Translations under genes and position numbers: made by a program | The notes under the pieces: generated by a model | What the model saw: only the letters and a program-made list of their open reading frames with translations | Databases searched by the model: none | Told to the model about the DNA's origin: nothing | NCBI GenBank assembly: GCA_027596195.1 | Contig: JADGJG010000226.1 | Span: 1 to 29,897 of the forward strand | Origin: Podochytrium sp. JEL0797 | Lineage: Eukaryota; Chytridiomycota; Chytridiomycetes; Chytridiales; Chytriomycetaceae | Length of the DNA stretch: 29,897 bases | Reading direction: 5' to 3' | Shown here: piece by piece, positions 6,072 to 29,897 of the stretch | How positions within the stretch are numbered: position 1 is the first letter of the stretch | How the letters are laid out: every line of letters begins with the position of its first letter

Positions 6072-7064
6072 ATGAAAACCTCCTTCGCCATCACTGCCCT
6101 CGCTTCCCTCCACGCGTTCGCTTCCGCCGCATCCCTTGTGGAGGTGCTCACCTCGGCCAACGCCGCCACGCTCCTTGCACTCGTCAAGAGTGATCCCGCC
6201 GTCCTCACAGCTCTGTCCACCTTCTCGGGAACCCTCTTCGCACCCACCGATGCCGCCCTCGCAGCAACCGTCGCGTCTGGATTCAACGCCAGTGACATCT
6301 CTGCACTCTCAAACGTGCTGACATACCACGCTGTTGCAGGAACTCCGTTTTCTGGCGCCGGATTCTCGGGCACAGAGTTCTTGACGGCTCTGCAAGGAAA
6401 CGATGTCAAGGTCACCGGATCTGCGGCGAGTGGAGTACAAGTCTTTAGCGCGTTTGGAAACCCAGCGGCTACTGTTATGCAATCCCTCCCGTTTGATGGC
6501 GGGTTCGTGCATGTCGTGGATCAGACCCTTATTCCGCCTGCCAATGTCGTGGCAGTCGCCAAGGCAGCGAACCTCACGTCTCTCGTTGACGCGATCGTGG
6601 CAGCCGGACTTGCCGACACTGTTTCGAAACTGAAGAATGTGACGATTCTGGCGCCCACGAATGAAGCGTTTGCTGCCATTGCGAGTGTTGCCGCGGGTTT
6701 GAGTGTGGCGCAGTTGCAGCAAGTCTTGTTGTACCATGTCATTCCGGGTGTTGTGCACAGCACGGACATCGTCAAGGCCAAGTCTCTTCCAGCTGTTGCC
6801 ACGGCGAACAACGGAACCACCTTGGACATTCAGTTCAACGGATCCAACGCGTTGATTACGGGCAAGGGCAACAAGGGCCCTGCTACAGTTGCGTTGGCGG
6901 ATGTTTTGGCTGATCGTGTGGTTGTGCATGTGATTGACACCGTGTTGTTGCCTCCCCTCGGTGGTGCTCCTGCGACCACTACGATGGGACTTTTGTCGAA
7001 AAGTGGAGGTTTTGCCTCGTCGGCGGGCTTTGCCGCTTTGGCTGTGGTTGCGCTGTTTGTTTGA
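6072..7064 (+). CDS. GPI-anchored protein with two fasciclin (FAS1) domains, copy 1
   Basis: A single-exon protein of 330 aa. Residues 1-20 are a clear signal peptide (MKTSFAITALASLHAFASA). Two FAS1 domains follow. The first (about 22-152) has TLFAPTDAAL and a YHAV motif; the second (about 155-293) has VTILAPTNEAF and LLYHVIPG. The last 20 residues are a small-residue and hydrophobic tail (SSAGFAALAVVALFV), as expected for GPI attachment. FAS1 proteins are cell-surface adhesion proteins; in fungi they act in adhesion and wall organisation. It should be anchored outside the plasma membrane or in the wall. The copy at 7846 is over 80% identical by eye. Both share the promoter core and a 3' motif (TAGTATTGCGATT at 7114 and 8916), so the duplication took in flanks as well as the coding region. 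Confidence 0.92.
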   Translation: MKTSFAITALASLHAFASAASLVEVLTSANAATLLALVKSDPAVLTALSTFSGTLFAPTDAALAATVASGFNASDISALSNVLTYHAVAGTPFSGAGFSGTEFLTALQGNDVKVTGSAASGVQVFSAFGNPAATVMQSLPFDGGFVHVVDQTLIPPANVVAVAKAANLTSLVDAIVAAGLADTVSKLKNVTILAPTNEAFAAIASVAAGLSVAQLQQVLLYHVIPGVVHSTDIVKAKSLPAVATANNGTTLDIQFNGSNALITGKGNKGPATVALADVLADRVVVHVIDTVLLPPLGGAPATTTMGLLSKSGGFASSAGFAALAVVALFV

Positions 7065-7845: not shown

Positions 7846-8868
7846 ATGAAAACCTCCTTCGCCCTCACCGCCCTTGGTTCCCTCCACGCGTTCGCATCTG
7901 CCGCATCCCTTGTGGAGGTGCTTACTTCGGCGAATGCTGCCACGCTTCTCGCACTTGTCAAGAGTGATCCTGCCGTCCTCACTGCTCTGTCCACCTTCTC
8001 GGGAACCCTCTTCGCACCCACCGATGCTGCCCTCGCAGCAACCGTCGCGTCTGGATTCAACGCCAGTGACATCTCTGCCCTCTCAAACGTGCTGGCATAC
8101 CACGCTGTTGCAGGAACTCCGTTTTCTGGTGCCGGATTCTCTGGCACTGAGTTCTTGACGACCCTACAAGGCAACGACGTCAAAGTGACCGGATCTGCGG
8201 CGAGTGGAGTTCAAGTCTTCAGCGCGTTTGGAAACCCGGCAGCAACTGTGATGCAATCCCTTCCATTCGATGGTGGATTCGTGCATGTCGTGAACCAGAC
8301 CCTCATTCCGCCTGCCAATGTGGTCGGTGTGGCAAAGACCGCGAACCTCACGTCTCTCGTCGACGCGATCGTGGCAGCCGGACTTGCCGACACAGTTTCG
8401 AAGCTCAAGAACGTGACGATTCTGGCACCCACGAATGAAGCGTTTGCTGCCATTGCAAGTGTTGCGGCGGGTTTGAGTGTGGCGCAGTTGCAGCAAGTCT
8501 TGTTGTACCATGTGGTCCCGGGGATTCATTACAGCACGGAAATTGTCAAGGCGGTGTCTCTTCCAGCTGTTCCCACGTCAGGAAATGGTACCTTGAACAT
8601 TGCGTTTAACGGAACGAACGTGTTGGTGACGGGAAGTGGCAACAAGGGTCCTGCCACTGTTCTTTTGGCGGATGTGTTGGCTGATCGCGTGGTTGTGCAT
8701 GTGATTGACACCGTGTTGTTGCCTTCTCTGGGTGGTAGTGCTTCTGTCACGACAGGGATGGGTCCTGCTGCTTCCCCGACTGCGATACGTACAACATCTG
8801 CCATGAGTGGCGGCTTTGTTGCTTCGGCAGGGTTCGCTTCTTTGGCTATTGTCGCTCTGTTCGTTTGA
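7846..8868 (+). CDS. GPI-anchored protein with two fasciclin (FAS1) domains, copy 2
   Basis: A single-exon protein of 340 aa with the same layout as its neighbour at 6072: signal peptide (MKTSFALTALGSLHAFASA), FAS1 domain 1 (TLFAPTDAAL, YHAV), FAS1 domain 2 (VTILAPTNEAF, LLYHVVPG) and a GPI-type hydrophobic tail. The differences cluster in two places: about residues 238-255, and the Ser/Thr-rich linker before the GPI signal, which is about ten residues longer here. That linker would hold the adhesive domains further from the membrane. It converges with the YbjQ-like gene (174 bp between stops). Role and location are as for copy 1. Confidence 0.92.
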   Translation: MKTSFALTALGSLHAFASAASLVEVLTSANAATLLALVKSDPAVLTALSTFSGTLFAPTDAALAATVASGFNASDISALSNVLAYHAVAGTPFSGAGFSGTEFLTTLQGNDVKVTGSAASGVQVFSAFGNPAATVMQSLPFDGGFVHVVNQTLIPPANVVGVAKTANLTSLVDAIVAAGLADTVSKLKNVTILAPTNEAFAAIASVAAGLSVAQLQQVLLYHVVPGIHYSTEIVKAVSLPAVPTSGNGTLNIAFNGTNVLVTGSGNKGPATVLLADVLADRVVVHVIDTVLLPSLGGSASVTTGMGPAASPTAIRTTSAMSGGFVASAGFASLAIVALFV

Positions 8869-9787: not shown

Positions 9788-11083
9788 ATGGACCCCACTC
9801 TTCTCGCCCTGCTCCAAAGCATCCAAGCCCAGCAGAACGAGTCCACCGCCCGCCAGATCGCCTTCGATTCCCAACAGACTGAATCCATCGCCCGCATTGA
9901 GTCCCGTCTTGAAGCCATCGAGACAAAACTGGCCAATCTGACCTTGCCATCCTTTGAACATTCCCTCCCTTCCGCTAGCGAGAACTCCACTGGATCATCC
10001 TCAAGCTCTTCTCTCGACTTGTCATGCGACTTGCCCCAACTGCAAAACCCGCCTCGCCAGGTCCCCCTTTGCCTTTTGGAGATTCCTCGCGAGATCACGA
10101 TCCAAATTCTCTCGTGGATCTCTCCAACGGAAGTCTTTTGCTACAGACGTGTCTGTGGGGTGTTCGATGCGATCCTGTCCAGCAAGCACTTTGCTGTCCT
10201 GAACCTCCGCCACTTCTCTCCCATCGACGAATGCGTCCATACCATGAATGAATACGACGTGAATGGTTTTTACACGTTATCCGCGATTGAAGAGGTCTTC
10301 TTTTATGGACCGTCCTCGTTCCAAGCCGTGTTTGCCGAAACCCGCCTCAAGCCAATCACCGTTACGAAGTGGTACTGCAACCCTCTCCTTCCATCGTCTC
10401 GCATTCCTACCGCGATTGGCCTTTGCATCAACCTGATTTGGTTGGATTTCGCTTCGATGCGTCTGCATGGCCGGATCCCAAATCAAATTGGCTGCCTGAG
10501 TTCGCTCAAATATCTGAACATGGCTTCCAATCGACTCACTGGCAGGATTCCTGTTGAATTGGGATGCCTGGTGCAGTTAGAGACGCTCGATCTCTCTGAG
10601 AATCTACTCACTGGGGGGTTTCCTGTCGAATTGGGAGGCTTGGCCCAGTTGGAGACCCTCAAGCTCTCTGAGAATCAGCTCACTGGTAGAATCCCAGTTG
10701 AATTGGGAAGCTTGGTGCTCTTAGAGACTCTCAACCTCTCTCATAATCGGTTCGGCGGGGATATCCCCGTACAAGTTGGGAAATTGGTGCAGTTGAAGTT
10801 TCTCAATCTCTCTTCGAATCCATTTGTTGGTGTCATTCCTGTGGAAGTGGGGAACTTGGTGCAGTTGGTGCATATGGATCTGTCTCGGAATGACCTCAGC
10901 GGCCCGATTCCGACATCTGTTGGGAAGCTGACTCGACTTTCCTCACTGATTCTCAACGGAAACTATCTGTCTGGAATGGTTCCGATAGAATTGACTTTGT
11001 TGGAGAGTTTGGAGACTTGTATTCTTGACAAGAGTGGCGAAATGGGCTGTGCATTTGGATGGGATTTCTGGGAAACGCAATAA
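9788..11083 (+). CDS. F-box / leucine-rich repeat protein with coiled-coil start
   Basis: An intact single-exon protein of 431 aa and the reference copy for the local family. Residues 3-50 form a glutamine-rich amphipathic coiled coil (LLALLQSIQAQQNEST; IESRLEAIETKL). A serine-rich linker follows, then the F-box at 95-143 (IPREITIQILSWISPTEVFCY). From about 215 to 420 there are roughly eight plant-type LRRs of 24 residues with the GxIP signature (GRIPVELG.L..LETLDLS.N). This LRR type is common in plants and patchy in fungi. The build suggests a Skp1-binding substrate adaptor whose LRR surface reads a target; no target is known. The coiled coil may mediate dimerisation. No signal peptide is present, so it is intracellular. 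Paralogues lie at 275, 4399 and 9455. Confidence 0.85.
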   Translation: MDPTLLALLQSIQAQQNESTARQIAFDSQQTESIARIESRLEAIETKLANLTLPSFEHSLPSASENSTGSSSSSSLDLSCDLPQLQNPPRQVPLCLLEIPREITIQILSWISPTEVFCYRRVCGVFDAILSSKHFAVLNLRHFSPIDECVHTMNEYDVNGFYTLSAIEEVFFYGPSSFQAVFAETRLKPITVTKWYCNPLLPSSRIPTAIGLCINLIWLDFASMRLHGRIPNQIGCLSSLKYLNMASNRLTGRIPVELGCLVQLETLDLSENLLTGGFPVELGGLAQLETLKLSENQLTGRIPVELGSLVLLETLNLSHNRFGGDIPVQVGKLVQLKFLNLSSNPFVGVIPVEVGNLVQLVHMDLSRNDLSGPIPTSVGKLTRLSSLILNGNYLSGMVPIELTLLESLETCILDKSGEMGCAFGWDFWETQ

Positions 11084-11915: not shown

Positions 11916-14900
11916 ATGGCGAACGTCACCGCAGATTACCAACGCTTCGTCAGCATCAAGGCAGTTGCGGGAGATGTGACCGTGGAGGGCGTGCTGGTGT
12001 CATTTGCGATCCAGACGCTGATTGCGCTGGGTGAGTGGCGATCACTGTGACACACCCAATTCATTTCCATTTGACTTGCAAGCAACCACCACTCACTCTC
12101 TTCAATGAATCAGCATGCATCGCATCTTTCTCGTTCCTCCGCCCGCGGGGTCCCAACAAGTACATTTTCCAGCCGAAGCTCGAGTTTGATGAGGCACGGG
12201 AAGAAGAGAAGATCGAGCCGCTGGAAGACTCGCTGGTGGGATGGTCGAAACCAATCTTCCGCAGGCATAAGGGGAAAGAAAAAGTGACGCGTCTGGGATT
12301 GTGAGTGCGATAAGTTCCGCGGAGCGTTTGGATTCCTTGCTCATTTCATCCGTCACAGAGACGCAACCATGTTTCTGGAATTCAACAAGCTGTTGTTTGT
12401 CGCGTTTGCTGCCCTCACTCTCCTTGGCCTCCCGTACGCCTTTTTCAACTATTCCTTCGCGAACATCACCGGCGCTTCTTCCAACAACGGCATCGACCCA
12501 ACCGTTTACCAATCCGTGGCAAACAACGGTTCGGTAGTTGTGGCTGGATCTAACAATTCAATCGTTGGAGTGGGTCCGACCGCTCCCGCCCCGGCTCTTC
12601 CGTCCACCACGTCCACACCAACGAGCAGCAATTCTTGGGCCCCATCTCCCACTATCGCTGTTCCAGTTTCGTTCCAAATCCGTTGCGGGAGTTCCTGGGA
12701 TTCTGCCAACGCGACGTGCGGCCCACTCTGTCAAACTGACACCGACTGCCCAAGCGGGCTTCTATGCTTCAAAGACGTGATTTCTTGCTCGGCCTCATCT
12801 CGCGCGCGGTTCGTGACAACACGCGACCATCACGGCTCCCCGCGTCTGACCCTCCGCGACGACTCAGGAAACTCTCCTTCCATCAACTCCGCCAACACCT
12901 CCATCATCATCGCGTCGGGTCTCAGTTCTTTGACCATCACACAAATCGATGCTTCGTCTCCTTGGTTCTGGCTCCCCACAATCCTCACATGGGTGTTCAG
13001 CGCGATCGTGTACGCGTTTCTCTACAAACTGCTGTCTCTGTACATCAAGCATCGCCAATTCTACTTCACAACGGATGAGTTCAAAAACTCCTTGGCCCAT
13101 CGCACGCTCTTTTTAACGTACATCCCAAAGATCGAGACGAGCAAGGAGTTGATTGCGTTCATGCATGAGCGGGACGCATCGTTGGAGATTCAGGAAGCGA
13201 CTATTAATCGCAATGTGTCGCTGTTGGGGAAGCTTGTGAAGGAGCATAAGGACAAGACGAAGGAGTTGGAGCGGTTTTTGATTGGTGTGTTTGAGGCGGA
13301 AGATGCGGAGTCGGGGGAGGTGCGTCGGTCTCGGGGTGGAACGGGGCGTGTGGGGCCGAAGGAGGAGCATTTGGAGTCGATGGTGGAAATTCATCACATT
13401 CACGAGACGGATGGGGGGGAGGAGCCGGGGACACCGAAGGACGAGTACCATTTTCAATCCAAGACCGACAAAGTCAAGGACGATCTCCTGAAGCAACTGC
13501 GAACCAAGGCCAAAACTCAATCAGAGCGAGATGCTGAGATCAAGGACCTTGAACACGAGATTGACGAGCTTGAAGTGGCCATTGAAGCGATCCGCACCAC
13601 CTCAGAACACGAGCACCCGTCCAACGAGTCTGGCTTCTTGTCCCTCGCCACTCCACAGCAAGCCCATGCGCTCATCAAGACGCTTCGCTCTCACCCAAAG
13701 TACGTCAAGAAATTTGGCGGCGTTCACATCAAATTCGCGCCCGAGTTTCCAGACATTTTCTGGGCCAACATTGGGCGACCTCAACCCGAGATTTACGGGC
13801 GCCGTTTCCTCGCCGTCCTCGCCACCATCGGCCTCACCATTGGCTGGATTCTTCTCCTCGGACTCCTCTCGACGCTCCAAAACCTCACGGTCCTGTTCCA
13901 AAACAACCCCTCGGCTCTCGCGTGGCTCCAAGCCCACCCTGGGTGGCAAAACTTTCTCCAAACGTTCCTCTGTCCTATTCCACTCGCGATTGCCAACTGG
14001 CTCTTGCCGCTGATTCTGCTGCTCATCACGTTTTTGCAAGGCGTCAAGAGCGGGGCAGGGGCCACCAGAAGTATCTTGTACAAGAACTACACGTTCAACA
14101 TGATTCAGATCTTCTTGTTTGCGTTGATTTCGGGCATGATTCACCACAGCAACAAGGACACACAGCTGCCGACGTTTGTACTGTCGGATCCGGAGGTGAA
14201 GCAGGTTGTGACGGTGATTGAGAGTTTGACGCAGGTAAGCAGTCATTTGTTTCGTGTTCTCTCTTGCTGAATTGCGTCTCGTTCTCGGCAGAACTCATAT
14301 TTTTATATCACGATGTTGGCCTCATTTTACGCGGGGTTTGGGATGGAGATTTTGCAAAGTGTCAAGTTGGGCATCAGCTTTGTGCGCCGCAAGGTGTTCA
14401 AGTTGACGCCGCGCGACGAGTTTGAAATGAACGGAATGACTTCTATGGATTTTGTGCAGGTATTGATTTTTCGGACGCCTTGTTTTGTTTGAACGCGATT
14501 TTCGAAAGCGTGTGTTGACCTAGTGTTGACCTTTCTTTTGATACTCAGTTCTATGGCACGTTGGTGATGGCGTTCACCATCTCTTTGACGTTTTCGATTA
14601 TCGCGCCCATGATTCTCCCGTTCGCGATGCTGTTTTTCGGAATCACGTTTGTGGTCATGAAGTATCAACTGATGGTTTGTTAGCCCGTCCGCTTTTGTTT
14701 GCGTTGTGCCAACCAATCTCTCCCTCCCATTTATACAACCCAGTACGTCTACGAAATCGAGCAAGAAACATTTGGCTCCTTCTTCCCCAAAATCTTTAAC
14801 CTCCTCTCCACCTCCGTCCTCTTTTTCCAACTCACGACCCTCCTCGTTGTGTTTGCCGGAAACGCAACCACCCCATCGGCCCCGGCGTTCCAACAATGGA

Positions 14901-16534
14901 TGGTCTTGGCCCCGCTTCCGTTCTTGACCGCCACCCTTTGGATCCTCGCCCGATTCTACCGCATCCCACAAGGAGTCTACTGCGTGTCGCAGATCCTTGA
15001 CTTATCCGACGTCGACCCAGAGTCCCCACGTTCACCCGCGTTAGCGTCCTCCAACTCGGTCCAAAGTCTCTCTCTGCACGAGCAATCTTTCAACACGGAA
15101 TTTGTGGCCCCACTCCCACGCGTGCACCTCCCGCTTGAATTCCGCGCGCGTTCGAAACAGTATTACACCCCGCGTGTGCGAGCGCAGATGGACCCACGGG
15201 ACGCGAGGACGCGTGCATGGGTGATGCGGATGCCGACCTTGGAGGCGCGCAAGCGGGATATTGTGTGTCGGATGGTGAGAGGGGGTGGAGTCGGGTATGA
15301 GCAGATTCGGGGTTTGAGTATCGAGGAGTTGGAGGCGTTGGGTGGGGTTCCGCCGGAGGTGATGGAGGAGGTGAGGGTACAGCGGGATGTGGAGAGAGTG
15401 GAGAGGGAACGGGGAATGTTGGGTGAGGTGGGCGTGGGGGAGTGTGAGGTTGCAGTGAAGGAGCATGGGGAGTTCATATCGGAATCTGTTATGGAGGAGA
15501 AGCCTGTGATTGTGGAGCATAACGCGGAGGATCTAGTGATGGAAAGGCCTGTTGTGGAGAAGGAATCTGTGATTGAGGAGCCTATCGCCGAGGATCCAGT
15601 GATGGAGGAGCCCATTGAAGACGAGCTCTTGATGGATGGCAGTGAGCTTGTAGAGCCCATAGCCGAGGGGCTTGTGATTGCGGATCTTGTGGAACCGGTG
15701 GTGATCGAGGAGCAACCCGAAGTACGGGAGGAAGACAGCGTCGATGAGATTGTGGTCGTTCCTCCGTATGCCGCGCCCTTGGTCGAGCTTGAGGACGCGT
15801 TTGTTGAAGAGCCGATTGACACCAAGGAGGAAACTTCGGTGGAGGAAGAGGTCCCAATCGTAAAGCCGGAACTGGAGCAACACGTCGAGCCTTCCAACGA
15901 CGAGCCCGAAATCTATTTCGTTCCATCGCATCCCAAGGTTGTCACTATGCTCAAAGTGGATGTTGTGAATCCGCGGGAACATGTTGAAGGGAAGGATCAT
16001 TACGTGGAGTATGAAGTTGTTTCAAAGGTACTTCGTAGGCTTCGTTGGCGCTGATATTCCGCAAGCGAGTTTTTAAACAAATTTTACATGCTTAGACCGA
16101 TATCCCCGGATTTGCGGCAGAGGGAGACGTTCGTAGAAGATACAAGGATTTTGACGCGTTCCGAAACGACCTTGTTTACGAATTCCCGGAGTGAGTTGCC
16201 GCTGCTTTTCGTTCAAAAGTTGGCTAACCATAAAAAAAATACCCCAGTCGCGAGTTCCCAGCGATGCCGCCCAAGGTCTCTGTTCTCTTTAACAAGTCTC
16301 ACGACGTAATTGAGTCGAGGCGACAAACGTTCGCTTCATTTTTGCAGACGTGAGTGAGCTTGTATTTGCTTTAACTCGTTGTGAATGCTGATGTTGTTTG
16401 ATAGTGTTGTAACAGATGAATATATCCACACGAGGTCCAAAGCACTCAAGAGCTTCGTGCAAGACCCGACATATGTACCGATTGAACGCCAAGCCGGCTG
16501 GCTCGATTCCTTATTTGGAGCAAAGAGCTCGTAA
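11916..16534 (+). CDS. OSCA/CSC1-type (TMEM63 family) channel fused to a PX domain
   Basis: Nine exons: 11916-12030, 12114-12300, 12359-14234, 14292-14459, 14549-14674, 14744-16027, 16096-16190, 16248-16349 and 16405-16534. All phases agree, giving 1360 aa. The N-terminal RSN1-type helix, the conserved GLDATMFLEF junction, the long cytosolic PHM7-like loop (13,080-13,800, with coiled-coil and charged stretches) and the later membrane helices mark the hyperosmolality- and stretch-gated cation channel family. Two additions are unusual. Between the first helices lies a Ser/Thr-rich segment with a cysteine-rich module (CGSSW...CGPLC...DCPSG..C, about residues 210-245). After the last helices come an acidic E/P/V-rich stretch and a PX domain (about 1230-1345) with RRRYKDF, an AMPPK loop and SRRQTFASFLQ. 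PX domains bind phosphoinositides, usually PI3P, so the channel may be placed on endosomes or vacuoles. Confidence 0.85.
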
Positions 16535-17476: not shown

Positions 17477-17598
17477 ATAAAAATGGCATTTGGATGTGTT
17501 CCTCGCAAATTGCTTTTCCGATCGCATAATCGAATAAATCGGTGGAAGATTTTCGTGTGGGGGTTTAATCGTCGACGTCAAAAATTGTCAGTGGAAAC

Positions 17599-20500
17599 AT
17601 GAGTCTTGCAGAACCGAACCCGCTCGCGAGCAAGGCACAGTCCAACATTACACTCGCCCTGATCGACTGGTACTGCTTAATTCCTGGGATTCAATACTCG
17701 GATGGAGCCTGGCTCAGCGGTTACGCAACCGCCTTCAACGCGACCAACGTGAGCTTCAATGACAAATCGGGATTCGTTTACACCCAAGATCTCGCGGTTG
17801 CAGCAGCAGTTTCTGTCATCAACAGCAAATCAGATATTCTGCCATACACGACCGTGAATATCAAAAGATTTAGTGATTGTGGGCCCTACTGGGCGGAGGC
17901 TCTGACACAATTCCACGGTCAAACTACGGGGTTCGCGATGTCTAAAGTTGCCATTCCTATTGGAGAAACTCATACGGATGTGGTTGCGGTGGTGGGAGGA
18001 GAATATTCTTCAACGGCCAAGTGAGTTTCATTTTCCGACGCGATTTCGCATTCTTCTGATCCATTCTAATGTATTCCAGAGGAACGGCGGAGATCCTTGG
18101 AGATTTTCAGGTTGGTCTGCATCATCGAATTCATTGTTTTTTAATGCTGCAAAATTAGATTCCTTATTGCTCTGCACGGTCAACTTCCCCCATTTTGAGC
18201 GACAAAAACAAATACCCGTACTTCTTCAGAATGCTTACAGCGGCTGGGTTTGGAGATCATTTAGCTCTGTTATACCGATCTTGGAATGTGAAACGCGTAG
18301 CTGTTATTTGCGAGAAAGATGATTTGATGAGCAGTAGTTTAGCCGACGATGTTTATGAAAGGTTGAACAATCACGGAATCGCAATTATATCCACCATCAA
18401 TTTGAAAACTGCTTTGTCTCAAGAGATGGTTGAGTATGCTGCTACCGCTTTGCGCCGATCGGAGGCCAGGTTTGCATCCACCTGCGTGGCCAAATATGAA
18501 GCTAATTTCGATTTCTTTGGTGCAGATACATTTACATCTCTGGTCAAGCGGAATTTGTGAGCAAAGTCTATTTTTCACTTGCTCTGCTTGGAATGGTGGG
18601 ACCAGAATTCGTTTATTCGGCTACGAATCCCCCGACACGAATTGCATCAGACATGTCCCTACTCTCCCTAAATTGTATGTAAAAACCCTCTGTCTGGGTC
18701 TCTCTATTTTAAGTTCTATTCTCGTAGTGCATACCCTCAACAACGACGTCTCGAGAATGGGCAAGCTGGTTTCCGGGTTCATTGCGATCCAATCCGAAGG
18801 AGAGACACCCAATTCTCCTTGGCTGCAGTTGTTTTATGACGCGTTCATTTCTCTGGGTGGATTTGATGAAGCGACGAAGAAGGAGCAAGGGTTCGATACG
18901 CCTCTAAATCTCGTGAACAATCTGGACTGGTATGTTGGTCGCAGTTTTGACTGTGCCATGCTACTGATGCTGGGGATGGACAAGGTGAAATGAATTTTTC
19001 CTTTCATTGACTTGAAGCTTAAATTCAACACATGAAGCTCGTTGGCAAGGCTTCGCAATTCACACCCTCTGAGCTGGCATCTCGAAAACTCTCTCCGCTA
19101 TTGAATTATACCCAGTTCTTGACCTTGGGTTTGTTTCTCATTGCTTTTGTCTGTTATTTCTAAACCTCGCTTGATATGCAGATTATCCTGGACTCACATC
19201 GAATCCGGTCTCAATCAACGGCAACGGCGACCTTCAATTGCCATTTACTGTAAGGTTTTATAACGGATCTGTGAATCCAAGCATTACTGGATTTGTTCAG
19301 ATTCCCTTTTACATGACTGGTGCGTCGTGGCATTCTGTCCCGATTTATCTTTTGAACCTTTCCGAACGCAGCTTTCGCTCGAACCGACATCTCCGGCACA
19401 AGGATCAATTCCATTAACGACACACTACCTGTGTTTTTTGGAGGTATAATTTATTTGATGGTTTGGGAGATCGCGTCGTAACCGTTTCGTCTCACAAAGG
19501 CTCAAGCATTCCTCCACCCGATGGACCTCCTGTTGTGGTTATCACACCGTTTATTAATAACTTAGGCTCATCAAGTGGTGTTGGAATCGCCGGAATGACA
19601 GGCCTTGGTCTGATTTTCTGCCTTCTGCTTTTCGTCTTCCTCGTGAAATTCCGAAATCTGAAAGAGGTCAAGAGGGCGTCTGTCCCTGAATGCATGGCAA
19701 TTTTGGGTGGAAGTGTGCTCGTGTATGTATCGCTTCCGTTATATTTGAACACCGCTACGACAGCAAAGTGTGTGGCGCGAATTTGGTTGGCCTTGCTGGG
19801 GTACGCGTTGGTTGTGATTTCAATTATCATGAAAAACGTGAGGTTGTGCATTGTTTTGAGGTCAAAAGTGAGGGTTGATGCAGTCTTTTTGACGCGGATG
19901 ACACGTGTTATTATCTTTATTGGTGTTGTGATACAAGTGGTTTGTTCGAATTTCTGACCTATTACGTTTCTGTTACTTATTTCCCTCAATCGCAACTAGG
20001 GATTACTTGCATTCTGGACAATATCTTCCAATATTACACCCACTCAGCTGATTGTCGACAACGAGTCATTCACCGTTTGCACAAGCGGAACTGCAAATCA
20101 TCTTGCACTCAACCTCCTCATTGTTTACACTTCTGTCATTCACGTTGCGCTTCTCGTTCTCACCTACTTGCTGAAAGACGTTGATGCTATTTTCAACGAA
20201 TCTCCTGCGCTGATGAGCATCTTCGCCCTCGTCGGAATCCTGGTGGGTGTGATGGAGATTCTTCCGTCGAACCCGAGCACGAGCCAAGATTTGATTCAAT
20301 GTATCTGTCTCTGGCTCGCTGTGACGGGAACACTGTTGCTACTAATGGGAAAGAAGGTCTATGAAGTTGCGTTTGAAAGATTGTTTGAGCGTGGGATTTT
20401 CAGCTTGATGTGCAAATCCTCAGCGGAAAGCCCTACTGCGGTCGCTGTGAGTGGGCTTGGAGTGAAACAGCAAAAAAGCGCACCTGGAAGTGGAAATGCT

Positions 20501-21070
20501 TCTCAATTTTCGAGAAATGCGAGCCCTGGTATATCAAGAGTAGCGCCAGCTGGAGTGACCAAAAGTTTAAAATGTGAGCACATCTTGAATCGAACTGACA
20601 AAATCAACTCATTAAGCCTTTGCATCTAGCTCTGAATGACGTGAATCGCTCTCGTCGCAAGTGCCATTCCAACCAGCTGGTGAGTTTTCTTCCAATCGTG
20701 TTCGCTGGCCTTTGAAATCAAACCCGTGACTTTCCAGGGTGGAGCACAAGCCTTCAGATTCAAATCCAACAGATTCCAATTGCTATGGAGCGAATGGAAT
20801 GGTGGAGTGTTTTACATGAACTGCATTCGCAAAAGAACTTGGTTGTCAGTTGCCACTTCTGGACGATCCGACGCCTTCTGCATCATGTCAACAGCCCAAA
20901 TCAAACAACTTCCGAACTCAAACCAAGTCCAAATTACCGACTTTCCTTCTTTCAGCTATCATGTTTTGGTTGAATTCAAGGATGGAATGGATGCGGCAGC
21001 GTTTGTGGAGAATTTCCGGAAATGCCGTGCCGCTCTGCTTGAGCAAGAAAGACCTTGTTCAAGCGGTTGA
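17599..21070 (+). CDS. Class C (GABA-B-like) G-protein-coupled receptor
   Basis: Twelve exons: 17599-18020, 18080-18110, 18159-18469, 18526-18674, 18728-18984, 19038-19128, 19182-19319, 19372-19443, 19500-19939, 20000-20573, 20630-20679 and 20738-21070. All phases agree, giving 955 aa. Residues of about 15-490 form a periplasmic-binding-protein-like ligand domain (ANF-receptor type: YCSARSTSP, RVAVICEKDD, YIYISGQAEF). Seven membrane helices follow at about 505-750, with class C features in the last helices (LWLAVTGTLLLLMGKKVYEV). A Ser-rich tail and a globular cytosolic domain of about 130 residues, with PH-like strand patterns, close the protein. Receptors of this build are expanded in chytrids; ligand and G-protein partner are unknown. 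Oddly, the start at 17,599 gives no signal peptide, so an upstream signal exon may be missing. The exon at 19,500 rests on one 56-nt intron chosen for phase. Confidence 0.87.
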
Positions 21071-21247
21071 AGAATTTTCGGATCGGAAACGAGAAAAAAT
21101 TCGTAGATCCAATAAAATTTGTGCTGAAATTATGCAAACTAAATTGAAAGCGTTTATATTGAGAAAATTGCTAAACCTGTTATGATGTCATATTTCGTGG
21201 ATAGGATACAATTTGAAAATTGTCACGGAAAAATTAAATCCCTTGTA

Positions 21248-21505
21248 ACCGAACGCGCTTGCCAGCAATACATAGTCCAACGTTCTGGTCGACTCATCTT
21301 TCTAAATTCAACACTCGGATGGCGTGGCTCGGCGGTTACGAAACCGCTTTGAAGTTTGAAAGCGACCAACGCTAACTTCGATGACAAATCGCGATTCATT
21401 CAACTATCTCGCGACAGCAGCAGTAGTTTCAGTCATGAACATTCAATCGGAAACTCTGTAATAGACAACCGTGAATATCAAATGATTTAGCGATTGTGGG
21501 CTTTG
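21248..21505 (+). pseudogene. Broken copy of the receptor's first exon
   Basis: This stretch aligns with 17,616-17,885, the first exon of the neighbouring receptor. Shared words include CACTCGGATGG, CTCGGCGGTTACG, GATGACAAATCG, ACAACCGTGAATATCAAA and GATTGTGGGC. It contains indels and in-frame stops and lacks the rest of the gene. It is the remnant of a tandem duplication of the receptor, cut off before the mobile element. Confidence 0.75.
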
Positions 21506-21557
21506 CTGTAAGCTCAGTGTCAGCTCTTTCCTTTCCGCCAGAAAAAACTTTGTCCGC

Positions 21558-21690
21558 TTTTTTTTTTTTTTTCTTGACGGAGTCAAGAGCTGATGACAGA
21601 TTTTTCGGCAACCCCGTCCCAGGTTCAAATCATGGCCAAAGACACATTTTCTGGAGCTCTGTCCGTTAGAGCTACCGACTTCAAATTTCA
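21558..21690 (-). repeat. Possible SINE-like insertion with poly(A) tail
   Basis: On the minus strand a run of 15 A (T15 at 21,558-21,572) ends a stretch that begins with an A-box-like word (TAGCTCTAACGG, rc of 21,663-21,674) and a D-arm-like GCTC...GAGC pairing. A proper B box on the same strand is not clear; the best GGTTCAAATC match lies on the opposite strand. A tRNA-derived SINE is possible but weakly supported. No other gene is seen between 21,506 and 21,821. Confidence 0.25.
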
Positions 21691-21821
21691 AATGTAGCAA
21701 TATAATTTATAACTGTAATGTTTAGCCGTGGCCGAATTTTGAAATTCGCGGTTTGAAATCCGCTCGTTGAAATCGCGCCGCAATGACGAATTGAGACTCC
21801 AGAGAGCGAATGTATACTATT

Positions 21822-21876
21822 ATAAACATCTTCGCCCAGTTTCAGTGATGGATCGCGACGGGGGAAGCAAGGGGGG
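21822..21876 (+). repeat. Left terminal inverted repeat
   Basis: These 55 bp match the reverse complement of 26,958-27,012 without a mismatch. Similarity continues with small indels to about 21,890 (GGGTGGCGAGCG against GTGGGGCGAGCG). The outer tip is ATAAACATC. A G-run (GACGGGGGAAGCAAGGGGGG) makes up the inner part. The repeat contains an ATG (21,848). Confidence 0.93.
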
Positions 21877-21898
21877 AGGGTGGCGAGCGGGGGGGTGA
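21848..21898 (+). other. TIR-encoded upstream reading frame
   Basis: The ATG inside the left TIR opens a 16-codon frame (MDRDGGSKGG...) rich in glycine. It ends with TGA at 21,896-21,898, one base before the helicase ATG at 21,900. If the transcript starts outside or early in the TIR, this frame would be read first and the helicase would depend on reinitiation or leaky scanning, which would lower its level. Confidence 0.4.
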
Positions 21899-21899
21899 C

Positions 21900-23927
21900 A
21901 TGGCCATTTCGTCAAAACATCGCAAAATGCTGCCTCTCGACCACCTGAATGACATTGCCGTACAATGCCATCTCATTACTCGCGAGGTCCTTAAGAACCA
22001 AGTCCGAGATTGGCAGTCCAGCGCTGTCGAGGCCTTCCTCCAATGCCGAGACTTCTTTGCGATTCAGCCAACGGGTGCCGGAAAGACGTGGATCACTGCC
22101 CTCATTGTTCTCGTTTTCCAGAAACTCAAGAACTCGAGCAATCTCATCAAAGTCAGCAAACAGTCATCAGTCCTCTACATCGTATCACCACTCCTTTCTG
22201 TCATGCAAGATCAAATGAACGACCTCAACGGCCGCAACATCCCAGGCCTGCGCGGAGCGGCATTCGGATCTCTCGACGGGGCCAAGGATCTAAACAACGA
22301 ACACACCCGAGCGACTCGAGAGCTCATTGCGAATGGGGAGGTCCAGGTTGTGTGGATGACACCCGAAATGGTGGCGCTTTTGAGCAAAGGGAACCGATGG
22401 ACGGAACCGCTGTTCTCCCTCGTTAAACAGACAGCGATTGGATTCGTAATCGACGAAGTTCATCTGCTGCTGGATGCCGGTGACTTTTGGCGACCGGACT
22501 ACCTCGCGTTGGAGTTGCTGAGACCGCTCCTTCCTCTGGTGCCAATCGGATTGATGAGTGCCTCTGTTCCTCGCTCCACTCTTCAAGTCTTGACAACTCG
22601 TTTGAGAATAAAGCCTGATGTTGTCATGCTTGTTGGCTGTACCGATCGACCAAATGTGTTTTACAAAGTGGTGGAACGAAAGCCTATTCCACAGACGTTT
22701 GGTCATATGCGCGACGATGTCTCTGCCTTCCTTTTGGACCCACACAACTTTGTCTTCAACCCCAACGACTATCCTGTCATGATTTTTGCCAACAACCGAC
22801 CATTGGCTGGTGCCATTGTTGACTACATCATTGGCCAAGCAAGTGCCTGCCCCAAGATTGTTGCCAAGTTTACAAGATTGTCGTCTGAAACCCACAAGTA
22901 CGAAGTTTTGACTCTGATGAAAGATGGCTCCAACGTGCTCCAGATTTTTGTGTGCACAGGCGCGATGGGTGTCGGCAACAACCCTCCTGCGATCAGGCGC
23001 GTCATTCACTTCCTTCCACCAGACTACAACTCATACTTTCAAGAATCTGGTCGCGTGGCTCGAAATCATGGCTTGGGTCGAGTCGAGTTGCACTACCGAG
23101 TTTCTGATTTTCAACCCAAGTCCACCGATTCCAACGCTGTGAAGCTTTCGAAAGCAAGGGATAAGCATATCTTCCAATTTTACATTGGCGTATTGTTGGA
23201 TGAAGAAAGTGGAGTGGTGGAAGTGACGTGTAGGAGGGCGGTGCTCGGCAGTCACTTTGCGGGGACACCATACTCATCCTTGCCTGAGCGCTGCTGTGAT
23301 GTTTGCCATCCGGATTTGTACCCAACTCCTACTCTGCCTCCGGCTCCTCGGAAAGTGGGATACCGAAAGAATGCGTGTCGGATGTCACCACAGGAAAGGG
23401 TGGATCTTGCAGGGTTGTTGTCCGAAAGGCGTGAGGCACTAGTCGCAGGAATCAAAAGACCCCAACAAGCGGTCAAATTTGCGCCACAAATTGTGGGGCT
23501 TATGTGTGACGATGCTGGGGGCATGGTGAAAGGCACATTCCTGTGGCCTGACAATTTCGAGAGGCAGTGGAGACAGCCTCTGATGGACATTGTGAAAGAC
23601 TTTCTGGTGCAGATTGGGAAAGGGACGACTTTGAGTTCAGCTGTGGTGGTGAACAAGCAGAATGCGCCAAGTGTTATGGAGATGAGGTCTTTTCTTGAAG
23701 GGAAGAACGAATTTCCTCCCGGAGGCGGAATTTGGGGCAAGAAGCCAGCTGGGAAGTTTATCAAGGAGAAGTATAGTGAGGAGTTTCGTGATTTTGTGTT
23801 GCTCAGTCATGGTGGTGGGGTTGTTGAGGGTGGAGAGAATAGAGAGAGACTTGAGAGTTTGGATGACATTGAGGGTGTGTGGAACGAATGTGAGGATGAA
23901 GAGGCAGGAGATGAAATGGAAGAATGA
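21900..23927 (+). CDS. RecQ-like superfamily 2 DNA helicase of the element
   Basis: An intronless protein of 675 aa. Helicase motifs are in order: motif 0 (RDWQSSAV, about 36-43), motif I/Walker A (QPTGAGKT, 56-63), Ia (VSPLLSVMQDQ, 95-105), motif II (DEVH, 185-188, against the usual DEAH/DEVH), III (LMSAS, 218-222), IV (IFANNR, 295-300), V (VCTGAMGVGNN, 351-361) and VI (QESGRVAR, 381-388). A RecQ-type zinc site follows (CR at 444, CCDVC at 465-469). After about residue 490 the sequence is unfamiliar; the helix-turn-helix and HRDC domains are not recognised. The protein should unwind DNA 3'-5' with ATP. In this element its likely job is to process ends or replication intermediates. Its ATG lies about 10 bp inside the imperfect part of the TIR, so the promoter must lie in the TIR or the flank. 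Confidence 0.9.
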   Translation: MAISSKHRKMLPLDHLNDIAVQCHLITREVLKNQVRDWQSSAVEAFLQCRDFFAIQPTGAGKTWITALIVLVFQKLKNSSNLIKVSKQSSVLYIVSPLLSVMQDQMNDLNGRNIPGLRGAAFGSLDGAKDLNNEHTRATRELIANGEVQVVWMTPEMVALLSKGNRWTEPLFSLVKQTAIGFVIDEVHLLLDAGDFWRPDYLALELLRPLLPLVPIGLMSASVPRSTLQVLTTRLRIKPDVVMLVGCTDRPNVFYKVVERKPIPQTFGHMRDDVSAFLLDPHNFVFNPNDYPVMIFANNRPLAGAIVDYIIGQASACPKIVAKFTRLSSETHKYEVLTLMKDGSNVLQIFVCTGAMGVGNNPPAIRRVIHFLPPDYNSYFQESGRVARNHGLGRVELHYRVSDFQPKSTDSNAVKLSKARDKHIFQFYIGVLLDEESGVVEVTCRRAVLGSHFAGTPYSSLPERCCDVCHPDLYPTPTLPPAPRKVGYRKNACRMSPQERVDLAGLLSERREALVAGIKRPQQAVKFAPQIVGLMCDDAGGMVKGTFLWPDNFERQWRQPLMDIVKDFLVQIGKGTTLSSAVVVNKQNAPSVMEMRSFLEGKNEFPPGGGIWGKKPAGKFIKEKYSEEFRDFVLLSHGGGVVEGGENRERLESLDDIEGVWNECEDEEAGDEMEE

Positions 23928-23941
23928 AAGTTATATTATCT

Positions 23942-26903
23942 TTACAATTGAATATACTCTGTCCCATCTTCATCGATACCAAAACCGACGTCGTCCACTT
24001 CTCCGTCAACATTGTCCTCACCCCCATCTTGCTGCCCTTTCCGCAGCTTTCGAATCTTCTCCTTAATGTACCCCGCATTATTCAACTGAAACATTCCCAC
24101 TTCCCACATGGATTCGACCCCAAACACCTTCCGTTCAACAGGGGTCAGAGTTTTGGTTTTCATTTGACTCAAGTCGAAACGAAACGACTTCTTGTCCTTG
24201 TCAGTTTGGACGTTTTGGTGGTGATGGGAGCCTGTGTGATGAATACCCAACTTGTGAAACAACTGATCCTCCACTTTGCTCAAAGTTGGTGCCACCATTG
24301 ACACGCGTTGGGAATGGGAGAAGTACGTGTTTGTCCCGGCTCGCTTTTCCATCGTTTTAAACTGTAGAACGTACTTTTCGAATGACCAGTCCAGCGAGGT
24401 GAATGAATCCGCGAGCCCCAATGAATTGCAAAACCGATTCTGAGCGGAAATGTACGCACACCGAGCCGACATGAGAGACTCCATCGAGATGAGCTCTTTG
24501 GTAATCAATGAGCAGTACGTTGTTGAATATAGCTTGAGCATGGGGAGAAAGAGGCGATGAACCCGCATGAGGCCTTGTCCATCACCGTGTTTCACACAAG
24601 ATTTCAATACCTAGAATTAAATGAAAGTTAGATCTTTAAAGCTGAGAATCACGTTCATACTTTGTAGAGGAGCACATCCTTGATGAACTGGAGTTGGTAG
24701 TTTTGAAATGGATCCGCAACGTTTGGCTCCATTGTTTTCGAAATCCCCTTCCCATCGGGCTTCACTGCCACCACCTCCTTATAATATCCCTCATCCAGCC
24801 TCCGTAAGATTGCCGAAATGATGGCTTCCATATCACTCTCCGTTCTTCCCCCTTCTGGAACCACTTCGGCGTCAAACCGCAGCTCAGCACACACGGTCTC
24901 CAACTGCTCCCACAAATAACAGTCAAATACGTCCATAATTATCTCCTGCATCTCATAAAACTTGAACTTGTTTCCATTGAGTTGTGGATTCTTTTTGTGC
25001 CCGTACCACCCAAGAGAACCTCGCACACTCGTGTGCCAACCATACTTGACGACATTGCAGCGCAGGATACACATCTTGTAATGAAATTCTCCCGTGGATG
25101 TCTTGTAGTCCAATAACCTGTTTTGGATAATTAGAATTGCGTGGAGAAGCAAAGATACTGACCGATCAAGCAACGAGCCATAAATATCATGCTTCCTCTC
25201 ACAGATCGTGGCATGAATGTTTATCACGCTACCACCATCTCCAGAAATAATCTGCTCCATTCCTCCCGCCTCTGTCATGTTGTGAATCTCGCGGAAGTCC
25301 GTCAGGATATTGAGCATTCCATCCACACACATTTCCTTGTCTTTCGACAGCTTGTTTGGGATTATCGCGACTGGATCATGATTACGCGACGGATGCTTGT
25401 TGATGAAAGGAAAGCTCTTGAATCCCTTGAAGTTTTTGATGAGAAACGCGCGAATCGCAACCCGGGAGTGCTCATCGAGAAAGTCGCAGTCAGCGTCGTT
25501 TGGGAGGATGTCGGAAACCGCGAGGTCTGCGATAGGGATGCGTGGAGAAAGTGGAAGGGAGGGGTCGTCATCTGTGACAGGAATGTACCCCCGCAACGTT
25601 TGTGAAACGAGCAAGTTGCTGTGATCGGATGCCTTTTGGGCAGTCTTTCGGTACCTCTCCACATTGTCCAGCACAAGAATCTGCTTGTAGCAGTCGTAAG
25701 TTGTGGTCGGGTCCAGCAGCGACGCAATTGAATCCGCATATTTATCGGACGTTCGTAATGCTGTCTTGTAGGATGCAGTAATTCCATACTCCTTCAGCAA
25801 ATGCCACACGCTCGAATTCACTCCATGCCTCAACATCACAAGACCATTCTCCTTCTGCAGGAGGTTCCGCTGCATACTTGACGACTGCTCAAACATGGAC
25901 ATGACCATGCAAAACTTGGCTGTTACACCACCCACGAGAGAGGAAATCATGGAGCTAACAAACGGTGCTTGCGACTTCCATGATTGAACCATGGCAGAAA
26001 TGTTTAAACGAGAATCAACGGTGACAGCTTCGTGACGTACGGAGCAGCAGGCACCCATCTCGGAAGTTGCCAAGGCTCCAGTAGCATCTTGCAGAAACTT
26101 GGTTCTCGTCTCTTGAGAAAGAGTGGCGTACAGGAGCGAGAGGGTGGGAGATTGAGAATCCGGTGGCAACGACTCGAAAGCCTCGCAGATTTGGGCAACA
26201 ACCAGTGGAGCGTCTTCCATCCTCTTCCTCATTTCTGCAACGCGTTGGGCCTCGTTTGCGACGCGTTCATTCTCGTGTGCAATGCGCCGTGCCTCGTCAA
26301 TGGCAAGTTGTTCAGCAGTCTGTGCCTCGTCGGCGGCAAGTTGTTCTGCAAGCTCAGCCGACTCGTTTCGGATTCGTTCCGCCTTCAAACGGTTCTTAAA
26401 CTGCGTCGTGTACTGAGGATTGTGCGTATAGAGAGAATGATCTACGAAGATCGAGTCGAGAGATTTCGATAAACAACGCGGGTCGTTCAGCTCCTGCACA
26501 ACATTGGTAGGAGGTGGGGCTTCAGCAGATCCGTAGAAGCGCGTTGAATGACGCGATGGATTTTGCCGCACAGGTGTTTGAGGAGCTGTGTGATTTGATC
26601 AAATCAGTTGGCGTTCCAACCTGCGTCAAAATATGAACTGTACCCGCGTCACCCCCTGGTGCCTTATAAAAAGAACCTGGCGGGATTGATGTTTGGCTTG
26701 TGCGCTGGGCGGGAGTTGTACGTTCTATTCACGTTGGCGATGTCGCAAACTCTCAGCCTAATCAACATATAAAATCCAGTCAAATCACCATTGCTTTGGA
26801 TAGAAGTCAACGGAGACCGTGACTTTTTCGCGAACTGCCCATTGCGAAGCTTCTCTTGGTGGTTAAGCTGCCTTTTCTGGCTGGAGGGATTCTGGTTTTC
26901 CAT
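23942..26903 (-). CDS. DUF6589-like protein, candidate recombinase of the element
   Basis: Proposed exons: 26903-26789, 26724-26677, 26585-25163, 25117-24661 and 24610-23942. All phases agree, giving 903 aa. Introns are 64, 91, 45 and 50 nt; the first two are less sure, and the 45-nt one is in frame and could be retained. The N-terminus is basic (KKSRSP). A charged alanine/glutamate-rich coiled coil lies at about 114-177. Resemblance to fungal DUF6589 proteins, judged from memory, includes KEYGITASYKTAL, VLDNVERYR (Asp at about 361), GDGG (about 503), FHYKM, RGSLGWYGHKK and VKHGDGQGLM. The spaced DN, GD and FH motifs recall an RNase H-like fold, but this is a guess. It is the only large gene besides the helicase and so the best candidate for the DNA-cutting enzyme. 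The tail is acidic (GEDNVDGEVDD). Confidence 0.7.
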
Positions 26904-27012
26904 TGTCGCAGATTTTTTGTTTGATCAATTTGAGGAAATTTTCTTTCGCTCGCCCCACCCCCCTTGCTTCCCCCGTCGCGATCCATCACTGAAACTGGGC
27001 GAAGATGTTTAT
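24128..27012. repeat. Tandem repeat unit 1 (2885 bp)
   Basis: This is the right 56% of the element, from inside the last exon of the DUF6589-like gene to the tip of the right TIR. It is repeated directly after itself at 27,013-29,897. I saw no difference between the copies in the stretches compared, and the encoded proteins are the same. Similarity stops at 24,127 (C against T at 27,012). Confidence 0.95.
26958..27012 (-). repeat. Right terminal inverted repeat, first copy
   Basis: This is the exact reverse complement of 21,822-21,876. On the minus strand it starts ATAAACATC and carries an ATG at 26,986 that opens a frame of 59 codons toward the DUF6589-like gene, in a different frame from the proposed start at 26,903. 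Confidence 0.93.
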
Positions 27013-29788
27013 CTTCCGTTCAACAGGGGTCAGAGTTTTGGTTTTCATTTGACTCAAGTCGAAACGAAACGACTTCTTGTCCTTGTCAGTTTGGACGTTT
27101 TGGTGGTGATGGGAGCCTGTGTGATGAATACCCAACTTGTGAAACAACTGATCCTCCACTTTGCTCAAAGTTGGTGCCACCATTGACACGCGTTGGGAAT
27201 GGGAGAAGTACGTGTTTGTCCCGGCTCGCTTTTCCATCGTTTTAAACTGTAGAACGTACTTTTCGAATGACCAGTCCAGCGAGGTGAATGAATCCGCGAG
27301 CCCCAATGAATTGCAAAACCGATTCTGAGCGGAAATGTACGCACACCGAGCCGACATGAGAGACTCCATCGAGATGAGCTCTTTGGTAATCAATGAGCAG
27401 TACGTTGTTGAATATAGCTTGAGCATGGGGAGAAAGAGGCGATGAACCCGCATGAGGCCTTGTCCATCACCGTGTTTCACACAAGATTTCAATACCTAGA
27501 ATTAAATGAAAGTTAGATCTTTAAAGCTGAGAATCACGTTCATACTTTGTAGAGGAGCACATCCTTGATGAACTGGAGTTGGTAGTTTTGAAATGGATCC
27601 GCAACGTTTGGCTCCATTGTTTTCGAAATCCCCTTCCCATCGGGCTTCACTGCCACCACCTCCTTATAATATCCCTCATCCAGCCTCCGTAAGATTGCCG
27701 AAATGATGGCTTCCATATCACTCTCCGTTCTTCCCCCTTCTGGAACCACTTCGGCGTCAAACCGCAGCTCAGCACACACGGTCTCCAACTGCTCCCACAA
27801 ATAACAGTCAAATACGTCCATAATTATCTCCTGCATCTCATAAAACTTGAACTTGTTTCCATTGAGTTGTGGATTCTTTTTGTGCCCGTACCACCCAAGA
27901 GAACCTCGCACACTCGTGTGCCAACCATACTTGACGACATTGCAGCGCAGGATACACATCTTGTAATGAAATTCTCCCGTGGATGTCTTGTAGTCCAATA
28001 ACCTGTTTTGGATAATTAGAATTGCGTGGAGAAGCAAAGATACTGACCGATCAAGCAACGAGCCATAAATATCATGCTTCCTCTCACAGATCGTGGCATG
28101 AATGTTTATCACGCTACCACCATCTCCAGAAATAATCTGCTCCATTCCTCCCGCCTCTGTCATGTTGTGAATCTCGCGGAAGTCCGTCAGGATATTGAGC
28201 ATTCCATCCACACACATTTCCTTGTCTTTCGACAGCTTGTTTGGGATTATCGCGACTGGATCATGATTACGCGACGGATGCTTGTTGATGAAAGGAAAGC
28301 TCTTGAATCCCTTGAAGTTTTTGATGAGAAACGCGCGAATCGCAACCCGGGAGTGCTCATCGAGAAAGTCGCAGTCAGCGTCGTTTGGGAGGATGTCGGA
28401 AACCGCGAGGTCTGCGATAGGGATGCGTGGAGAAAGTGGAAGGGAGGGGTCGTCATCTGTGACAGGAATGTACCCCCGCAACGTTTGTGAAACGAGCAAG
28501 TTGCTGTGATCGGATGCCTTTTGGGCAGTCTTTCGGTACCTCTCCACATTGTCCAGCACAAGAATCTGCTTGTAGCAGTCGTAAGTTGTGGTCGGGTCCA
28601 GCAGCGACGCAATTGAATCCGCATATTTATCGGACGTTCGTAATGCTGTCTTGTAGGATGCAGTAATTCCATACTCCTTCAGCAAATGCCACACGCTCGA
28701 ATTCACTCCATGCCTCAACATCACAAGACCATTCTCCTTCTGCAGGAGGTTCCGCTGCATACTTGACGACTGCTCAAACATGGACATGACCATGCAAAAC
28801 TTGGCTGTTACACCACCCACGAGAGAGGAAATCATGGAGCTAACAAACGGTGCTTGCGACTTCCATGATTGAACCATGGCAGAAATGTTTAAACGAGAAT
28901 CAACGGTGACAGCTTCGTGACGTACGGAGCAGCAGGCACCCATCTCGGAAGTTGCCAAGGCTCCAGTAGCATCTTGCAGAAACTTGGTTCTCGTCTCTTG
29001 AGAAAGAGTGGCGTACAGGAGCGAGAGGGTGGGAGATTGAGAATCCGGTGGCAACGACTCGAAAGCCTCGCAGATTTGGGCAACAACCAGTGGAGCGTCT
29101 TCCATCCTCTTCCTCATTTCTGCAACGCGTTGGGCCTCGTTTGCGACGCGTTCATTCTCGTGTGCAATGCGCCGTGCCTCGTCAATGGCAAGTTGTTCAG
29201 CAGTCTGTGCCTCGTCGGCGGCAAGTTGTTCTGCAAGCTCAGCCGACTCGTTTCGGATTCGTTCCGCCTTCAAACGGTTCTTAAACTGCGTCGTGTACTG
29301 AGGATTGTGCGTATAGAGAGAATGATCTACGAAGATCGAGTCGAGAGATTTCGATAAACAACGCGGGTCGTTCAGCTCCTGCACAACATTGGTAGGAGGT
29401 GGGGCTTCAGCAGATCCGTAGAAGCGCGTTGAATGACGCGATGGATTTTGCCGCACAGGTGTTTGAGGAGCTGTGTGATTTGATCAAATCAGTTGGCGTT
29501 CCAACCTGCGTCAAAATATGAACTGTACCCGCGTCACCCCCTGGTGCCTTATAAAAAGAACCTGGCGGGATTGATGTTTGGCTTGTGCGCTGGGCGGGAG
29601 TTGTACGTTCTATTCACGTTGGCGATGTCGCAAACTCTCAGCCTAATCAACATATAAAATCCAGTCAAATCACCATTGCTTTGGATAGAAGTCAACGGAG
29701 ACCGTGACTTTTTCGCGAACTGCCCATTGCGAAGCTTCTCTTGGTGGTTAAGCTGCCTTTTCTGGCTGGAGGGATTCTGGTTTTCCAT
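26986..29788 (-). CDS. Second, 3'-truncated copy of the DUF6589-like gene
   Basis: By the same splicing the exons are 29788-29674, 29609-29562, 29470-28048, 28002-27546 and 27495-26986, giving 850 aa. It equals the first copy up to the codon at the unit junction (27,013). There the last 61 residues of the full protein, including the acidic tail, are lost. Eight residues (INIFAQFQ) encoded by the inverted repeat of the first copy replace them before a stop at 26,986. All core motifs (VLDN, GDGG, FHYKM, KHGD) remain. It may be active, inactive or a competitor of the full protein. No helicase gene accompanies it. Confidence 0.65.
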
Positions 29789-29897
29789 TGTCGCAGATTT
29801 TTTGTTTGATCAATTTGAGGAAATTTTCTTTCGCTCGCCCCACCCCCCTTGCTTCCCCCGTCGCGATCCATCACTGAAACTGGGCGAAGATGTTTAT
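27013..29897. repeat. Tandem repeat unit 2 (2885 bp), ends at window edge
   Basis: This is a copy of 24,128-27,012 in the same direction. Its left edge abuts the tip of the first copy's right TIR without spacer. Its right edge, the tip of its own TIR, is the last base of the window. The window end and the unit end coincide to the base. Confidence 0.95.
29843..29897 (-). repeat. Right terminal inverted repeat, second copy
   Basis: It has the same 55 bp as 26,958-27,012 and ends at the last base of the window, so its flank and any target-site duplication cannot be seen. Confidence 0.93.

Follow-up and report, generated by a model that had tools for sequence, protein, structure and literature searches.

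The stretch of DNA analysed here (the window, 29,897 nucleotides) is the entire contig C142 in an assembly (24.4 Mb, 995 contigs) of Podochytrium sp. JEL0797, a member of the chytrid order Chytridiales. Toward its right end, the window carries a RecQ-like helicase gene and a gene of the Pfam family DUF6589 (PF20231), which face each other tail to tail between inverted repeats. Together they appear to form a two-gene DNA transposon bounded by terminal inverted repeats (TIRs), most likely of the AcademH lineage, with the DUF6589 protein as its probable transposase. The relevant features are as follows.

17578..21015, + strand: neighbouring member of the target gene family, with the uninterrupted version of the target site (empty-site alignment)
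21216..21508, + strand: left portion of the interrupted copy of the target gene, which resumes beyond the insertion on contig C212; aligns to the start of paralogs in the window, on C90 and on C212; left bound approximate
21500..21508, no strand: left copy of the 9-bp target-site duplication, GCTTTGCTG; script match of exactly 9 and empty-site alignment; the other copy lies on C212 beside 75565
21509..21876, + strand: full left TIR, 368 bp, beginning TAAGCTCAGTGTC; matches the end of C212 with one mismatch; C407, C461, C661 and C92 have comparable termini
21822..21876, + strand: inner 55 bp of the left TIR
21900..23927, + strand: RecQ-like superfamily II helicase, 675 amino acids
23942..26571, - strand: probable transposase gene of the DUF6589 family (PF20231), with exons modelled at 26571-25163, 25117-24661 and 24610-23942
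26958..27012, - strand: inner 55 bp of the right TIR, the outer 313 bp being at C212:75565-75877
27013..29897, no strand: exact copy of 24128-27012 (2,885 bp) that extends to the contig's final base; probably an assembly artefact, with the same layout on C407

The two genes between the repeats

A preliminary description of this DNA had named a RecQ-like helicase and a DUF6589-like protein, encoded by two convergent genes that occupy the space between the repeat arms, and had noted the lack of any known transposase. All of these statements agree with our results. In the helicase, Pfam detects the DEAD and Helicase_C domains, and its best relatives among solved structures (PDB) are bacterial RecQ, WRN and BLM. 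The motifs QPTGAGKT, IDEVH and QESGRVAR are presumably the characteristic helicase motifs, and the end CRR...CCDVC we take to resemble a zinc site. A protein search with the helicase returned 72 proteins, the window's own included. The nearest one outside this genome, 44% identical over 85%, is from another chytrid, Obelidium mucronatum.

The DUF6589 gene contains introns, modelled at 25118-25162 and 24611-24660. The spliced model is an 844-residue open frame starting from GTG; this N terminus is provisional, and an extra upstream exon is possible. Pfam places both minus-strand open reading frames (ORFs) in PF20231, with E-values of 1.9e-6 for ORF 24655-26571 (one modelled intron being read in) and 1.8e-9 for ORF 23942-24607; both pass the curated cut-off of this family (27.3 and 37.3 bits versus 27). 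A Pfam scan of the two element proteins of the window (E up to 0.1) revealed no other transposase domain. Similarly, hmmscan of four DUF6589 proteins at E up to 10 gave no known transposase family, with the program's filters dropping most matches above ~0.1. Sequence searches of the PDB with the DUF6589 protein found nothing, and a scan of viral contigs gave 26 pattern matches but no relative.

The ends of the element and its insertion site

The inverted pair 21822-21876/26958-27012 is perfect over 55 bp and 98% complementary over 59 bp. For comparison, when two 400-base stretches (21509-21908 and 26613-27012, the latter reverse-complemented) were mononucleotide-shuffled 200 times, the longest word that they shared was 12. 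A search of the genome with this repeat led to a match at the final 55 bp of C212. Upstream of these 55 bp on C212, the agreement with C142 continues for another 313 bp before the two contigs diverge abruptly, so that window positions 21509-21876 and the end of C212 match over 368 bp with a single mismatch. The 55-bp repeat is thus the inner part of a longer one, and C212 ends at the inner edge of the TIR. Taken as the inverted repeat, the 368-bp stretch implies that the element starts on the left at 21509 and has its right end on C212. The mobile unit would then run from 21509 to the matching end on C212 and measure ~5.8 kb, or ~8.7 kb if the tail repeat described below is real. The preliminary description was therefore correct in that the 55-bp repeats are perfect, but it overlooked the outer 313 bp, and its element ends, 21822 and 27012, have to be given up. 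The span 21822-27012 as the whole element is ruled out by the 368-bp TIR at C212.

The flank preceding position 21509 ends in GCTTTGCTG, and a script showed that the reversed C212 flank starts with the same 9 bases. Both flanks come from one gene family and their orientation is consistent. When they are joined with one copy of the 9 bases retained, no gap opens at the junction in their alignment to four uninterrupted paralogous stretches, one in the window, one on C90 and two on C212. The 9-bp duplication and the gap-free alignment to empty sites together indicate an insertion with a 9-bp target-site duplication; in other words, the C142/C212 insertion was made by a transposition event.

The target belongs to a tandem family of class-C G protein-coupled receptor-like genes (window 17578-21508; L045 on C90; C212). 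A product with ANF_receptor and 7tm_3 domains, like those of class-C receptors of this type, is encoded by the member on C90.

Recurrence of the gene pair

Matches to PF20231 above the cut-off were found on at least six contigs (C142, C92, C661, C823, C407 and C461), contig counts for DUF6589 being lower bounds. On all but C823, the DUF6589 gene is adjoined by a related helicase gene in convergent, tail-to-tail orientation; Pfam helicase domains were checked on four of these five contigs (C142, C92, C407 and C661), and the helicase of C461 is split over two overlapping frames. The arrangement is tight, with the two stop codons separated by 14 bp on C142, 6 on C92, 19 on C407, 23 on C661 and 16 on C461.

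The five families have related termini, beginning TAAGCTC, TAGGCTC or TAGTCTC: TAAGCTCAG in the window and on C212, TAGGCTCAG on C407 and at the right end of C461, TAGTCTCC at the left end of C461 and on C661, and TAGTCTCG on C92. Short elements with C661-type ends, too small for both genes, are present on C79 and C209, flanked by the 9-bp duplications GGAAGATCC and CCAAATTCC, respectively, as read by eye from the ends. Overall, a 9-bp duplication accompanies three of the five elements that have both flanks visible (C142/C212, C79 and C209). For C461, C407, C661 and C356, one flank at most was visible. The expectation of the preliminary description that the helicase and DUF6589 genes recur together within TIR elements is thus borne out on five of the six DUF6589 contigs, with related termini; the insertion at C142/C212 has, in addition, a 9-bp duplication and a reconstructed empty site. 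The opposite situation, the two genes apart and outside TIRs, was seen only in a truncated DUF6589 gene on C823 and in a weak lone helicase match on C113 (E 6.3e-5, one stop); the C661 contig includes no more than the left end of its element.

Several loci of less regular structure deserve a comment. The solo DUF6589 gene on C823 (L042, 3557-6015, - strand) has no C-terminal DxxxE part, and its contig gave no helicase match; it is either a dead copy or a domesticated gene. The product of the gene beside it resembles beta-tubulin. At C356:8925-9118 and 9814-9913 there are a C661-type TIR and a segment that shares 97% identity with the N-terminal part of the C661 DUF6589. The contig has no PF20231 match, and the locus is possibly a deleted derivative. 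On C92, positions 2949 and 8124, the limits of a 456-bp perfect inverted repeat, were considered as ends of the element and rejected, as the outer 210 bp are common to C843 and continue outside the repeat. The element begins, as read by eye, at L038:3159 with TAGTCTCG. Thus, in L038 (C92, 2949-8124) the 210 bp shared with C843 lie outside the element on both sides of the 456-bp repeat, which is either a real inverted duplication or the result of chimeric assembly. A search for further copies with the terminal pattern TARGCTCAGNGTC gave six places, three of them known, versus seven for the reversed control, and the others were considered background.

The DUF6589 protein as a candidate transposase

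Three lines of evidence suggest that the DUF6589 protein is the transposase of the element: its recurrence together with the helicase, the lack of any other transposase domain in the scanned element proteins, and the conservation of three acidic residues. In the alignment, the aspartates of DNV and GD are kept in all six DUF6589 families, and the E of DxxxE in all five that reach this region; in the 881-residue protein of C461, counted from the first residue of its open frame, they are D326, D484 and E751. The H of the G-x-F/L-H motif is likewise found in 6/6 families, the E of this motif being replaced by D in C92 and by L in C823. The conserved D, D and E might be the DDE-type residues of DUF6589, with a putative catalytic role, possibly within the RNase H-like fold that the preliminary description had suggested for its spaced DN, GD and FH motifs. 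Considering all this, the best reading is that DUF6589 is probably the transposase and the helicase its partner. This part of the preliminary description is strengthened by the recurring pair, the related termini and the 9-bp duplication, although its proposal of a new class is not (see below).

Comparison between families points to selective constraint. Nonsynonymous divergence (dN) was 0.24-0.48 in three DUF6589 pairs, compared to synonymous divergence (dS) of 1.74-1.82. Among six helicase pairs, two gave dS values (3.03 and 3.17, with dN of 0.52 and 0.89) and four gave none. In all of the pairs with computable dS (five of nine), dN is lower than dS, yet dS is near or past saturation. Both proteins are therefore likely to be under constraint, which is only imprecisely measured.

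A likely mode of action can be proposed for the two proteins. As a DDE-type transposase, the DUF6589 protein would bind the long TIRs, cut both ends and join them to the strands of a target nicked at positions 9 bp apart. The RecQ-like helicase might work together with it, for example by unwinding the ends; alternatively, it might remodel the gaps and joints that remain after excision and strand transfer.

Relationship to known transposons

AcademH elements (Academ superfamily), reported in 2020 (Kojima 2020, Mobile DNA 11:15), are described in two citing papers as helicase-encoding DNA transposons of animals and fungi with target-site duplications of 9 or 10 bp (PMC10045372, PMC10799480). The former also suggests a relation between the helicase and nuclease of AcademH and AcademX and the different lengths of their duplications (PMC10045372). 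The present element resembles AcademH in having a helicase gene within the element, TIRs (here 368 bp with one mismatch), 9-bp duplications and a fungal host. Its inferred size of ~5.8 kb is close to the average of 5,565 bp given for Academ elements of a bivalve library (PMC10294476). The host is a difference: the fungal hosts of AcademH named in PMC10799480 are Basidiomycota, Ascomycota and Mucoromycota, whereas here it is a chytrid. Since the element agrees with AcademH in every feature that could be tested and disagrees with KolobokH, discussed below, it is probably a new member of AcademH and not a new class. The new class of fungal transposon put forward in the preliminary description is thus not supported, as helicase-bearing DNA transposons with 9-10 bp duplications are already known under this name. 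We assign a probability of about 0.8 to the reading of the element as a two-gene DNA transposon with TIRs, most likely of the AcademH lineage.

Several observations weigh against this assignment. The placement in AcademH is probable by analogy, through the helicase, the TIRs and the 9-bp duplication as described in citing papers, and homology of DUF6589 to the Academ transposase is putative. The complete element is distributed over two contigs, C142 and C212, and its own family was found only at the window and at the end of C212. No target-site duplication was detected at the visible ends of C547, whose right flank is the right flank of C79, nor on C92, where the right flank is an inverted copy of the left. 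Recurrence of the pair was established in one genome. Finally, no relative of the DUF6589 ORF was found among 8,000 candidates scored, and the alignment of DUF6589 paralogs gave one match among 7,999 scored, which came from C407 itself.

The best of the alternatives, which we nevertheless regard as unlikely, is a separate, undescribed transposon superfamily, in which DUF6589 would be a DDE transposase unrelated to Academ and the RecQ helicase would have been recruited independently. It could explain why hmmscan of the four DUF6589 proteins gave no known transposase family within the limits of its filters, but Pfam may simply have no Academ model. It also accords with the literature searched, in which no relevant paper mentions DUF6589, PF20231 or IPR046496 and no link to Academ or to any transposon was found. 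That a RecQ helicase can occur in another superfamily is shown by KolobokH (PMC9587614). However, the combination of a helicase, 9-bp duplications and a fungal host coincides with the features given for AcademH in the papers cited above. A broader version, in which the whole of PF20231 forms a DDE transposase family separate from Academ and has the RecQ helicase as a standing partner, seems to us equally improbable. If true, it would define an undescribed fungal superfamily marked by TA[AG][GT]CTC termini, 9-bp duplications and tail-to-tail genes.

Two further explanations are very unlikely. Long TIRs and 9-bp duplications occur in Mutator-like elements too, and the helicase and DUF6589 might be passengers of such an element that has no transposase of its own. 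However, elements from several divergent families are filled by this gene pair, arranged equally tightly, and Pfam scans of the element proteins and their paralogs gave no Mutator-like transposase domain, the whole genome not having been searched for such transposases. Alternatively, the locus might be a host helicase/DUF6589 pair or a subtelomeric repeat, with the TIR and the direct repeat produced by segmental duplication or misassembly. Telomere-linked RecQ helicases are known in fungi, and the tail at 27013-29897 does resemble misassembly; yet the 9-bp duplication together with uninterrupted paralogous sites is a mark of transposition, provided that C142 and C212 are truly adjacent.

The idea of a KolobokH element, that is, a Kolobok transposase accompanied by a RecQ helicase, can practically be dismissed: KolobokH elements are likewise fungal DNA transposons with a RecQ helicase, but Kolobok has a TTAA duplication and ends beginning 5'-RR (PMC9587614), whereas here the duplications are of 9 bp (GCTTTGCTG, GGAAGATCC and CCAAATTCC), the termini begin with TA and the two genes converge. 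A similar case is the rhodophyte Kolobok-1_CCri, which has its RecQ helicase on the complementary strand but belongs to Kolobok, with its TTAA duplication (PMC9587614).

The main gain from these results is a probable function for DUF6589. The minus-strand protein and its paralogs are members of PF20231, a family without an assigned function, for which we propose a mobile role. DUF6589 would thereby gain a testable role as a transposase, and proteins carrying it may be annotated as products of mobile elements and not of host genes. In addition, AcademH-like families become available from a chytrid, with their ends and duplications defined and an empty site reconstructed, as material for asking what the RecQ helicase does in transposition.

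The repeat at the contig end

The tail of the window (27013-29897) is probably an artefact, though it may be a real tandem duplication. On C142, the seam lies 55 bp inside the right TIR, and so does the end of the contig. A divergent element on C407 has the same layout, its right part being repeated at 99.24% over 2,492 bp, and its TIR match extends for 56 bp at the seam and for exactly 55 bp where the contig stops. This is most simply read as the product of an assembly with 55-base overlaps (the assembler itself being inferred) that was unable to pass the inverted repeat; the 56th matching base at the C407 seam may be due to chance. By the same reading, the perfect 55-bp TIR of the preliminary description corresponds to the assembly overlap. 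Plain miscopying does not account for the C407 tail, as it differs from its source by 0.76%. An autointegration product or tandem amplification was set aside as less likely because of the 55-bp positions of the seam and end on C142 and the 56 and 55 bp on C407. More generally, k-mer assembly can make a long TIR appear short and, probably, append a false tail.

Other genes in the window

The rest of the window contains genes of several other kinds. Three genes (9788-11083, 4399-5594 and, on the minus strand, 1390-2283) encode leucine-rich-repeat proteins with a weak F-box match, the Pfam search covering 9788-11083 and 1390-2283 only; two of the three have 72-bp tandem repeats. The neighbouring genes at 6072-7064 and 7846-8868 are closely similar, and the first encodes a fasciclin-domain protein. 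Finally, 12369-14270 and 14699-16054 belong to a gene of the PHM7/RSN1 (calcium-dependent channel-like) family, which apparently has at least two exons.
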